64,000 nt of DNA from Chloroflexota bacterium. GTDB lineage: Bacteria; Chloroflexota; Anaerolineae; VGOG01. The notes beneath the pieces were generated by a model. That model was not told the origin of the DNA, did not search any database, and saw only the letters and a list, made by a program, of their open reading frames with translations. Below are positions 49,213-52,168 of this stretch, piece after piece. Both the position numbers and the translations under genes were made by a program. Position 1 is the first letter of the stretch; each line of letters opens with the position of its first letter. The DNA lies in the NCBI GenBank assembly GCA_030611885.1, contig JAUWOY010000011.1:1-64000 (forward strand). Reading direction: 5' to 3'.

Positions 49213-49774
49213 AATCACGCAAGAAGCAGCGCAAAGAAAGAGAATATATCAACGGCTTGGGGCAGTGGTGTTCGCTGTCGCCATCACCTTGGCCATCGCT
49301 GCCTTTCACGATGAGCTAGCCCGGTTTGAGCGCTATGGCTATCCTGGCGTTTTTTTCATCAGTTTGCTGGGAAACGCCACCGTGATTTTTCCTGCCCCTA
49401 GCCTGGCGGTGGTTTTCGGCATGGGCGGAGTATTGAATCCCCTCTTCGTTGGGCTGGTAGCCGGCGTCGGCGAGGCCCTGGGCGAACTGACGGGTTATCT
49501 GGCCGGCTACGGGGGTCGAGCCGTGATCGAGGACTGGGAGATGTACGAGTGGCTGGAGAGATGGATGCAGCGCAATGGCTCAGCCACCATCTTCGTTCTC
49601 TCGGCCATTCCCAACCCCATCTTCGACCTGGCGGGCATCGCCGCTGGCGCTCTGCACTTTCCGCTGGCGCAGTTCCTGCTGAGTTGCTGGGTGGGGAAGA
49701 CCATCAAAACCACCTTCTTCGCCTTTGCCGGCGCGCAATTCATCAACACCATTGAAAGCTTGTTCGGTGCTTGA
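49202..49774 (+). CDS. VTT/DedA-family membrane protein
   Basis: [56 protein letters not shown]. Confidence 0.88.
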
Positions 49775-49857
49775 CATTTTCTGGGGTATGGGTTAGAATC
49801 ATTAAAGAGGCAGGGATGACAAGCAAATACTTTCCGCCTGGATAGGATGAAGAACGA

Positions 49858-50448
49858 GTGCGTCGAGTTCTTGCCCATTGCGAAACTCAAACAGAAGAGG
49901 AAGCTGTCACCGAAGAGATGAGAGAGCTTTTGAGGAAGGAAGTTAAAACACAATACGAGCACGTTATCCTCAACGGAGATAATGTGCCAGTCATTGCTGG
50001 AACAAACATGAAGGTGATCGAGCTCGTCCTGGGCAGAATGGCCTATGGCTGGAGTCCAGAGGAGGTGCATTTCCAGCATCCCTACTTGACGCTGGGTCAA
50101 ATCTACTCAGCCTTGGCCTACTATTGGGACCATCAGGAAGAACTCGACCGAGACATTGAGCGGCGGCTTCAGTTTGTTGATCAAGCTCAGCGAGCGCAAG
50201 AGCCTTTGAGGAGGTTCACGATGGGAGAGGTGATGACTTTACTGGAAATCCAAAGCTGTTTCGATGCCGAATGGGTGTTGATAGAAAACCCAGAGGTCAC
50301 AGAGTCGCTACAAGTGAAACATGGAAAGGTCTTGTGGCACAGCAAGGATAGAGACGAAGTCTACCACAAGGCCAGGGAGCTTCGGCCCAAACACTCAGCT
50401 ATTCTCTACACAGGTCGCTTGCCGGAAGGCACAGTGGTGGTGCTATGA
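49858..50448 (+). CDS. DUF433-like plus DUF5678-like protein
   Basis: VPVIAGTNMKVIELVLGRMAYGWSPEEVHFQHPYLTLGQIYSALAYYWDH is DUF433-like; EWVLIENPEVTESLQVKHGKVLWHSKDRDEVYHKARELRPKHSAILYTGRLPEGTVVVL is DUF5678-like. Confidence 0.8.
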   Translation: MRRVLAHCETQTEEEAVTEEMRELLRKEVKTQYEHVILNGDNVPVIAGTNMKVIELVLGRMAYGWSPEEVHFQHPYLTLGQIYSALAYYWDHQEELDRDIERRLQFVDQAQRAQEPLRRFTMGEVMTLLEIQSCFDAEWVLIENPEVTESLQVKHGKVLWHSKDRDEVYHKARELRPKHSAILYTGRLPEGTVVVL

Positions 50449-50828
50449 GTCTCTCGTTTGATCCGCAAGCAGGCTTGATTGTTGTGCCAGTTCGCCTTTG
50501 GGGGCCTGCTGGGGATACCATTGCACATCTGGCCATGGACACAGGTGCCACGGGATCGCTGGTGAACTGGGACATCGCTGTATTGTTGGGATACGATCCG
50601 GCTGCTACCAGGGAGCGAATTCGAGTGACGACTGGAAGCAGCGTTGAGTTCGCCCCCCAAATCGTGGTGCAAAGAGTTGAGGCGCTTGGGAGAGAGCGGA
50701 CAGACTTTCCCATCGTTTGCCACACCCTCCCGCCAAGTGCAGCCGTTGATGGAGTGCTTGGTCTCGACTTTTTCCGAGGTACTCGCTTGGTGCTGGACTT
50801 TCGCAAGGGTCTGGTGACGGTTGATTAG
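50445..50828 (+). CDS. Retropepsin-like aspartic protease domain protein
   Basis: LAMDTGATGSLVNWDIAVLLGYDP (DTGA catalytic motif) and VDGVLGLDFFRGTRLVLDFRKG; ATGA overlap with the upstream gene. Confidence 0.82.
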   Translation: MSLSFDPQAGLIVVPVRLWGPAGDTIAHLAMDTGATGSLVNWDIAVLLGYDPAATRERIRVTTGSSVEFAPQIVVQRVEALGRERTDFPIVCHTLPPSAAVDGVLGLDFFRGTRLVLDFRKGLVTVD

Positions 50829-50884
50829 AGAGCTGTTTCAGCCAGGGCGGGGCCGCTAGCCGAAAATCTGATAAGCAAAAGATG

Positions 50885-51150
50885 ATGATCAGGAGGAGTA
50901 GGCGGGTCGGACATGGTAGAGAAGAGGGGTCGTGGGCTGAAAGCTCCTCGCAGGGAGATCCGCCGAAGGTCGCCTGGGAGTCTGCTGGCTGATGGCAGAT
51001 GGCTCGCAGCTTCTGCAGCAGGTCAGTACGGGTAAGCCCGTTACAGCAGAATGAGAGAACAGCGGATCTGCCTGGCAATCTGCTGTTAAGCAAGGTGGTA
51101 CCACGGGAGGTGAGCCTCTCTCGTCCTTGACGGGAGGGGTTCTTTTGTTT
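50885..51150 (+). promoter_or_regulatory. T-box riboswitch leader (probable valine specifier GTC)
   Basis: AAGGTGGTACCACG T-box motif at 51092-51105; AGTA (50897-50900) and GAAG (50965-50968) resemble specifier-loop S-turn strands, followed by GTC at 50969-50971. Start boundary approximate. Confidence 0.88.
51112..51150 (+). terminator. T-box intrinsic terminator
   Basis: GAGCCTCTCTCGTC / GACGGGAGGGGTTC 14-bp stem (with G-T pairs), 3-nt loop, then TTTTGTTT. Confidence 0.88.
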
Positions 51151-51196: not shown

Positions 51197-51201
51197 TCAT
51201 G

Positions 51202-51217
51202 TGCCACTATGGTGGCA
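51202..51217. promoter_or_regulatory. Palindromic operator candidate TGCCAC-TATG-GTGGCA
   Basis: Perfect 6-bp arms right after the -10 box of the toxin-antitoxin promoter. Confidence 0.6.
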
Positions 51218-51240
51218 ATCTTTGGACGGAGGTGATCAAA

Positions 51241-51567
51241 ATGGAGACGGCTAAACTAACGGTGCGTTTGCCCAGGCAGCTTCACCAGACCCTGCGGGAA
51301 CGGGCAACGCGATCGGCGCAGTCGCTGAACAAGGTCATCGTTAACACCCTTTGGCGAGGATTGGAGCGCAAGGAGATCACTCCCCCCTCAGAATATGAGC
51401 GCACGATGGCCGCTATTCGCAAGACGGGATTGGTGACGACCCTGGGACCAGAGTGGGACAAGTATATCGAAGATGCTCCGGATATGACCGCTGAAGAGCT
51501 TCGTGAGGCGCTGAGAGGAATATCCCCTCTGTCTGAAGATATCATCGCGGATCGGGGCGAGCGCTGA
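51241..51567 (+). CDS. Ribbon-helix-helix antitoxin-like protein
   Basis: METAKLTVRLPRQLHQTLRERATRSAQSLNKVIVNTLWRGLER (RHH, Arc/CopG-like); start after RBS GGAGGTGATC. Confidence 0.85.
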   Translation: METAKLTVRLPRQLHQTLRERATRSAQSLNKVIVNTLWRGLERKEITPPSEYERTMAAIRKTGLVTTLGPEWDKYIEDAPDMTAEELREALRGISPLSEDIIADRGER

Positions 51568-52043
51568 TGGCTTCTTTCTACTTTGACAGCAGCGCATTGG
51601 TCAAATATTACATCGCTGAGATCGGCACCCACTGGGTGAAGATCTTGGTTGATGATCGAGTCGGTGATGAATGGCGCAACGCCGTCGCCACTTCATCTCT
51701 CAGCGTTGCGGAAGTGGTGGCTGCTTTTACTAAGCGGCATCTGATGCGCGAGATTTCCACGGGGCTGAAAGCGGCCCTTATTTCTCGCTTTCTGAGGGAT
51801 GGGCGCCAACGGTGTACATTGCTTGAAGCGGATAGCACGGTCATTGATACCGCCGTACAACTCATCCAACGCCATCCCCTGCGCGCCTATGATGCTGTGC
51901 AGTTAGCCACCGCTCTGATCTTGAATAATGCCTTGATCGCCGATCAGCTACCCCCCCTAACATTCGTCTCCGCTGACAACGTTCTCTGCAGAGCGGCGCG
52001 GGCGGAGGGGCTGCCAGCCGAAAATCCCAACGAGTATCAGTAG
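51567..52043 (+). CDS. PIN-domain toxin (VapC-like)
   Basis: MASFYFDSSALVKYYIAEIGTHWVKILVDD; VAEVVAAFTKR; LRAYDAVQLATAL; FVSADNVLCRAARAEGL. Confidence 0.92.
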   Translation: MASFYFDSSALVKYYIAEIGTHWVKILVDDRVGDEWRNAVATSSLSVAEVVAAFTKRHLMREISTGLKAALISRFLRDGRQRCTLLEADSTVIDTAVQLIQRHPLRAYDAVQLATALILNNALIADQLPPLTFVSADNVLCRAARAEGLPAENPNEYQ

Positions 52044-52127
52044 ATCCAAGATTTCCAGCAGAGGCGGCTCCCATGCCGCCGGTTCGCGGGCGTGGGAGCC
52101 CGCTCTGCTCAGAATTTGGATCTACTG
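52038..52127. repeat. Long inverted repeat between PIN gene and valS (CAGTAGATCCAA...TTGGATCTACTG)
   Basis: 12-bp perfect outer arms 52038-52049 / 52116-52127; inner arms 52057-52073 / 52093-52109 with few mismatches. Confidence 0.85.
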
Positions 52128-52168
52128 AGCATGAATAACCGAGTAATTTTCTAAGGAGGTATCTATCT

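Follow-up and report, generated by a model that had tools for sequence, protein, structure and literature searches.

Pairing of a DUF5678-like gene with an overlapping retropepsin-like protease gene in Chloroflexota: a candidate module with toxin-antitoxin-like architecture

DUF433 proteins of the COG2442 type are antitoxins with experimental support in Synechocystis VapBC10, where VapB10 binds its own promoter (PMC3834315), and the Xre-COG2856 (ImmR-ImmA) pairs, in which a DNA-binding partner and a protease share one operon, were predicted to be toxin-antitoxin (TA)-like in 2009 (PMC2701414). Retropepsin-type aspartic proteases also occur in bacteria, as APRc of Rickettsia and the retropepsin-like osmotic stress proteases of P. 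aeruginosa; the latter are secreted, and the abstracts on both describe no DUF5678 partner (PMC4140852, PMC12239564). The PDC-x systems of the PADLOC collection go back to Payne et al. 2021 and have the status of unpublished candidates (PMC11811056). Searches of open-licence papers, which are weak evidence on such points, returned nothing joining a retropepsin with toxin-antitoxin systems, nothing on PDC-M08, and just an unrelated mention of DUF5678. To our knowledge, no TA class with an aspartic-protease toxin has been known so far.

The locus considered here lies in a stretch of 64,000 nucleotides (the window) from a 3.4-Mb draft genome of a Chloroflexota bacterium, and the promoter, ORF1, ORF2 and their parts are all on the forward strand. 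A predicted sigma-70-type promoter (TTGACA-17-TAGAAT, 49771..49799), which agrees with the consensus at 11/12 positions and is kept in a syntenic relative (G002), is likely to serve the locus. ORF1 as listed, with a GTG start, occupies 49858..50448 (196 aa) and consists of an orphan DUF433 antitoxin remnant that continues in frame as a DUF5678-like domain; its stop shares the ATGA at 50445-50448 with the start of ORF2 (50445..50828, 127 aa), which carries a DTGAT motif and a GVLGLDF loop. The initial annotation had described ORF1 as a DUF433-like half followed by a DUF5678-like half, overlapping through ATGA a 127-aa single-domain protease. Both points hold: the coordinates are confirmed, ORF2 scores above cut-off for the Pfam families Asp_protease_2 and gag-asp_proteas, DUF433 scores 38.7 bits against a cut-off of 23.6 (aa 44-89), and the DUF5678 match (PF18929, aa 155-178), although sub-threshold at 14.5 versus 23.2 bits, is backed by profile-profile comparison and by structural modelling.

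ORF2, judged by its sequence, is a retropepsin-like aspartic protease (clan AA): it has the D-[ST]-G motif, the hydrophobic-hydrophobic-G loop and the single domain of ~100-130 aa that characterise the clan, and all nine members of the ORF2 family retain DTGA and, in the second loop, DG-LG-D without change. Its sequence holds no HEXXH motif. The operon resembles Xre-COG2856 in combining a DNA-binding partner with a protease, but the protease there is an HEXXH metallopeptidase and the regulator an Xre protein, in place of the aspartic protease and DUF433/DUF5678 of the window. The C-terminal domain of ORF1 is, by profiles and models, a divergent DUF5678-like domain, assigned at superfamily level only. 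Profile-profile comparison with DUF5678 gave E 6e-6 for four window-type sequences, and E 6e-8 with a probability of 95% for 14 window-type partners against a 74-member DUF5678 alignment; locally confident AlphaFold models of both share the order helix-strand-strand-helix-strand. A search of the PDB found no solved structure resembling the DUF5678 domain.

PDB 2ga1, a DUF433 protein, is the best fold match of ORF1. Comparison with 100 relatives divides ORF1 in two: residues 22-117 correspond to stand-alone DUF433 proteins (50-84% identity in the best dozen), which terminate near aa 114-117, and residues 118-196 to a separate small protein. None of the 100 relatives yielded a second protein spanning both domains, though 45 of them gave some match to ORF1. 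In 6/10 of the closest DUF433 relatives examined (L015, L018-L022), from other genera, a DUF5615-like gene, so called by sequence inspection, follows the DUF433 gene. The N-terminal half of ORF1 shows 60-84% identity to the DUF433 proteins of DUF433 (COG2442)-DUF5615/PIN systems such as VapBC10; in the window, however, no DUF5615 or PIN gene stands directly behind DUF433, a retropepsin occupies that place, and the C-terminal tail of DUF433 is lost.

How this arrangement may have arisen is suggested by G002, a member of the same family as the window genome, in which synteny extends over the entire locus, from a VTT gene on its upstream side to a T-box leader and valS on its downstream side. Its DUF433 gene is stand-alone, with 90% DNA identity over 265 bp, and has neither DUF5678 nor protease behind it. 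DNA homology between the two genomes breaks off at 50206, which delimits the DUF433 gene remnant of the window (49918..50206; Pfam core 49987-50124), and picks up again at 50860. The foreign segment between them (50207-50859) opens exactly at a Shine-Dalgarno sequence, TGAGGAGG (50207..50214), placed 6 nt 5' of an ATG at 50221; the join of DUF433 to DUF5678 therefore looks recent, and the DUF5678-protease pair seems, from these sequences, to have brought its own translation signal along. Since the DUF5678-like gene, which is the module's conserved first gene, has its own ATG behind TGAGGAGG, a separate protein of 75 aa (50221..50448) is likely to be made. The GTG start at 49858, on the other hand, is probably not real, because AlphaFold gives low confidence to the first ~40 aa (pLDDT <50 at residues 1-11 and 27-36) and the leader DNA is shared with a relative that has another frame open; ATG 49918 is the likelier start of DUF433.

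Considering DUF433 as a conserved component of the module, we rejected it, as no other protein among the 100 relatives matched both domains and the syntenic G002 lacks the pair. The conserved unit is instead the DUF5678-like gene together with the retropepsin gene. A retropepsin lies directly downstream in 19/30 fetched DUF5678 loci, most often at -4 bp. Conversely, when genomes of the GTDB collection were scanned for the motif of one retropepsin subfamily, 80 loci were returned, all in Chloroflexota by their titles, and a DUF5678 gene stands upstream in 78/79 of these (77 by HMM and L093 by inspection; L091, cut by a contig edge, is left out, and near-duplicates such as L128/L129 and L144/L146 are included). 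The overlap is exactly -4 bp (ATGA) in 46 of the 77 paired loci, and the catalytic D[ST]G is retained in 76/77 of their proteases. When the general Pfam protease model was used, a DUF5678 partner accompanied the protease in 17 of the 30 top loci; the unpaired proteases were for the most part large, with TPR fusions or a lipoprotein-like character, or belonged to a distinct small family next to a NuoE-like gene; and among the same-contig, same-strand DUF5678/PF13650 places listed, 31/33 were adjacent, with DUF5678 first in 31/31. Because this order recurs across many genomes, it is more than chance. The initial annotation had proposed a two-gene system, and this neighbourhood census shows it to be conserved far beyond the window genome. 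The window type itself is represented by 11 DUF5678-like and retropepsin modules in 8 loci, some in tandem; DUF433 is absent from all of them except the window copy, the closest ones being a DUF5678-like gene and a protease only. In one locus, L052, DUF5678 and retropepsin form one natural chain of 206 aa and are thus linked directly. The earlier interpretation was right in outline but took the wrong half of ORF1 as its basis: the conserved partner is DUF5678, not DUF433.

What precedes the DUF5678 domain varies. Pfam (E up to 0.05) finds DUF5678 in 72 of 74 partners, with RHH_1 in 12, RHH_5 in 8, PhdYeFM_antitox in 3, ParD in 1 (3e-9) and HicB in 1; most of the remainder carry an N-terminal extension of equal length for which Pfam has no name. 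A confident partner model (pLDDT 90.7) places an RHH-like pair of helices ahead of the DUF5678 domain, and CopG superposes at 1.4 A over 36 columns with a Foldseek E-value that is not significant; CopG regulators and antitoxins are the best PDB sequence relatives of the partner profile. Phd/YefM-type domains are fused to DUF5678 ahead of a retropepsin in L121, L135 and L136, the DNA-binding part being swapped. Many partners have no DNA-binding domain; those of the window pair's nearest relatives are among them, as are the short L042/L044/L045/L056 types. The window partner has no proven one of its own besides the accidental-looking DUF433. The suggestion that DNA-binding and protease-facing domains are united in one partner fits the family at large, where the former is usually RHH, but fails for DUF433, which is not a conserved part. 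Comparing distance matrices for co-divergence, so as to single out DUF5678 as the protease-facing domain, proved uninformative (DUF5678-protease 0.38, N-terminal-protease 0.42, N-terminal-DUF5678 0.38, all p 0.001).

Taken as a family, the modules have the layout of type II TA systems with RHH, Phd/YefM or ParD antitoxins: two genes, partner first, joined by ATGA overlap, antitoxin-type N-terminal domains, multiple copies and decay on the toxin side; the window copy has, for an antitoxin-type domain, only the DUF433 join. The proposal of a TA-like layout with a retropepsin gene in the effector position, instead of a nuclease, is borne out as gene architecture. The difference is that the downstream gene of the window module encodes an aspartic protease, whose toxicity and neutralisation are putative. 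DUF5678 (PF18929) is above cut-off in 79/200 genomes sampled from the class and in 0/14 control genomes, and the RHH-DUF5678 type occurs in 80/299 class genomes, in up to 8 copies per genome. Among 30 loci found via RHH-DUF5678, an intact protease is missing from 7 (absent, truncated, stopped, or a C-terminal remnant), and in an eighth the catalytic DTG is altered to DTD. The partner is missing from 1/79 protease loci, the intact orphan protease L089, against 7/30 for protease loss (Fisher p 4e-4), a bias that may partly reflect the protease being the longer target. In L053 and L127 the catalytic region has been removed by internal deletion. In the window genome itself, the pair of RHH-DUF5678 and protease is intact in L187, has a truncated protease beside an intact partner in L186, and has decayed in L185. 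Operator palindromes upstream show a slight excess only, over mononucleotide shuffles.

The closest catalogued relative is PDC-M08. A third partner type, recognised by 'MQWxxIRxxYPxQW' (alignment A6), corresponds to PADLOC PDC-M08A at 1e-33 to 1e-35, and its protease to PDC-M08B at 8e-49. Like PDC-M08, the window module has two small genes, a DUF5678-superfamily partner and then a retropepsin; window-type partners are homologous to the PDC-M08A type (E 1e-5 over 62 columns, probability 82%) and the window protease matches PDC-M08B at 2.7e-8. ORF1, however, has no match to PDC-M08A, and the window pair is therefore a relative, not a member, of PDC-M08; the RHH-DUF5678 partners and their proteases likewise match PADLOC weakly or not at all. 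We found no functional paper in the open-licence literature. The module had been called undescribed, a term that needs qualifying, as a sister subtype is already catalogued as a PADLOC candidate.

The pairing, gene order, overlap, catalytic motif, DNA-binding fusions, patchy multicopy spread and biased protease decay are observed. We infer from them protease toxicity, direct inhibition, autoregulation and a trigger: the retropepsin would be a latent effector harming the host cell, the DUF5678 domain would bind and inhibit this protease as the latter is made, and an N-terminal DNA-binding domain, where present (RHH, Phd/YefM, ParD), would repress the shared operon. We lean towards this reading, a widespread DUF5678-retropepsin module of TA or abortive-infection type in which DUF5678 restrains the protease, because of the pairing, the antitoxin-type domains, the kept D[ST]G, the multicopy patchiness and the decay bias, and also because of a TA-hotspot context (a RelBE-like pair in G002, an RHH-PIN pair in the window) and the sister subtype among PADLOC candidates. 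Against it we count the longer protease target, the orphan L089, the weak palindrome excess, the uninformative co-divergence, a window partner with no proven DNA-binding domain besides DUF433, and the lack of plasmid members; our search found no clear DUF5678-retropepsin module on plasmids or viruses. The chief rival is a protease-controlled repressor switch in which, by analogy with ImmA-ImmR, a stress- or phage-activated retropepsin would cleave its DNA-binding DUF5678 partner and so derepress the operon or other genes. DNA-binding domains are indeed frequent on the partners, and Xre-COG2856/ImmR-ImmA offers a precedent for a protease with a DNA-binding regulator (PMC2701414), but we think such a switch unlikely: many partners have no DNA-binding domain, the window pair's nearest relatives among them, unrelated DNA-binding families are swapped while DUF5678 stays, and the single chain of L052 has no repressor domain. 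Partners of this kind, together with L052, favour direct binding of DUF5678 to the protease over pure repressor cleavage. It is also conceivable, though highly improbable, that the retropepsin is an ordinary processing protease and DUF5678 a chaperone or adaptor for its folding or for targeting housekeeping substrates, the TA likeness being superficial. Protease-free DUF5678-like domains in conserved settings (by a CCA-adding enzyme and sucD, or in a Cys-rich single-copy family) would suit such a role; patchy multicopy spread would not, nor would the frequent decay of the protease beside a retained partner, and antitoxin-type domains on the partner would be unexpected.

A further alternative concerns the window copy and is compatible with the TA or abortive-infection reading: the DUF433-DUF5678 fusion might be a purposeful two-domain antitoxin in which DUF433 replaces RHH as the DNA-binding part of the operon. 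The join is in frame with no stop, the promoter upstream is conserved, DUF5678 partners commonly exchange the domain found at this position, and VapB10 offers the example of a DUF433 antitoxin bound to its own promoter (PMC3834315). We are nevertheless rather doubtful of it, since the junction lies exactly before the DUF5678 Shine-Dalgarno, an accidental in-frame join has by our reckoning a chance of roughly one in three, and the 100 relatives contain no second example. The AlphaFold model of ORF1 (21-sequence alignment) also gives no confident relation of the two domains: the DUF433 core and the C-terminal domain are each good, with block pLDDT about 90 or above, but their mutual placement is undefined (pTM 0.44). 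The join may thus be fortuitous, a DUF5678 cistron with its own ribosome-binding site having perhaps landed on the 3' end of a DUF433 antitoxin gene that had been orphaned, and the relevance of a fusion protein in the window copy is uncertain.

More broadly, though still tentatively, we consider it possible that these modules form a large TA or abortive-infection class, with a retropepsin toxin and DUF5678 as neutralising domain, of which PDC-M08 would be one subtype. Were this so, bacteria would have turned an enzyme akin to HIV protease into an effector of killing or dormancy, DUF5678 and many small bacterial retropepsins would gain a function, and an unpublished defence candidate would be unified with the RHH-DUF5678 modules.

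Both domains also occur in other settings. One DUF5678 lineage lies between a CCA-adding-enzyme-like gene and sucD, without a protease (L043, L048, L051, L057, L058, L068), and Cys-rich single-copy proteins (SCGTGDHSSCGPDCGCGCPY...) end in a DUF5678-like domain with no protease neighbour (L162, L164-L184). A small, conserved retropepsin of 117 aa behind a NuoE-like gene (L205, L208, L215) represents a different association of the same fold, and an IMG/VR viral contig (L152:2023-3297) carries, between larger genes, a pair of small DTGAD retropepsins separated by a few hundred bases, with no recognisable DUF5678 neighbour at that locus.

The surroundings of the window pair are themselves variable. 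G002 has at the same locus a RelBE-like pair (L013:922-1518) that is absent from the window, and the region from the VTT gene to valS resembles, in the sequences compared, a hotspot of TA-module turnover. In the window (50876-51131 and 51199-52043) a T-box leader (Rfam RF00230, 98.6 bits) is separated from valS (52169) by an RHH-PIN pair; as the T-box of G002 directly precedes valS, the TA pair of the window (about 51221-52137) was inserted between the riboswitch and its target gene.
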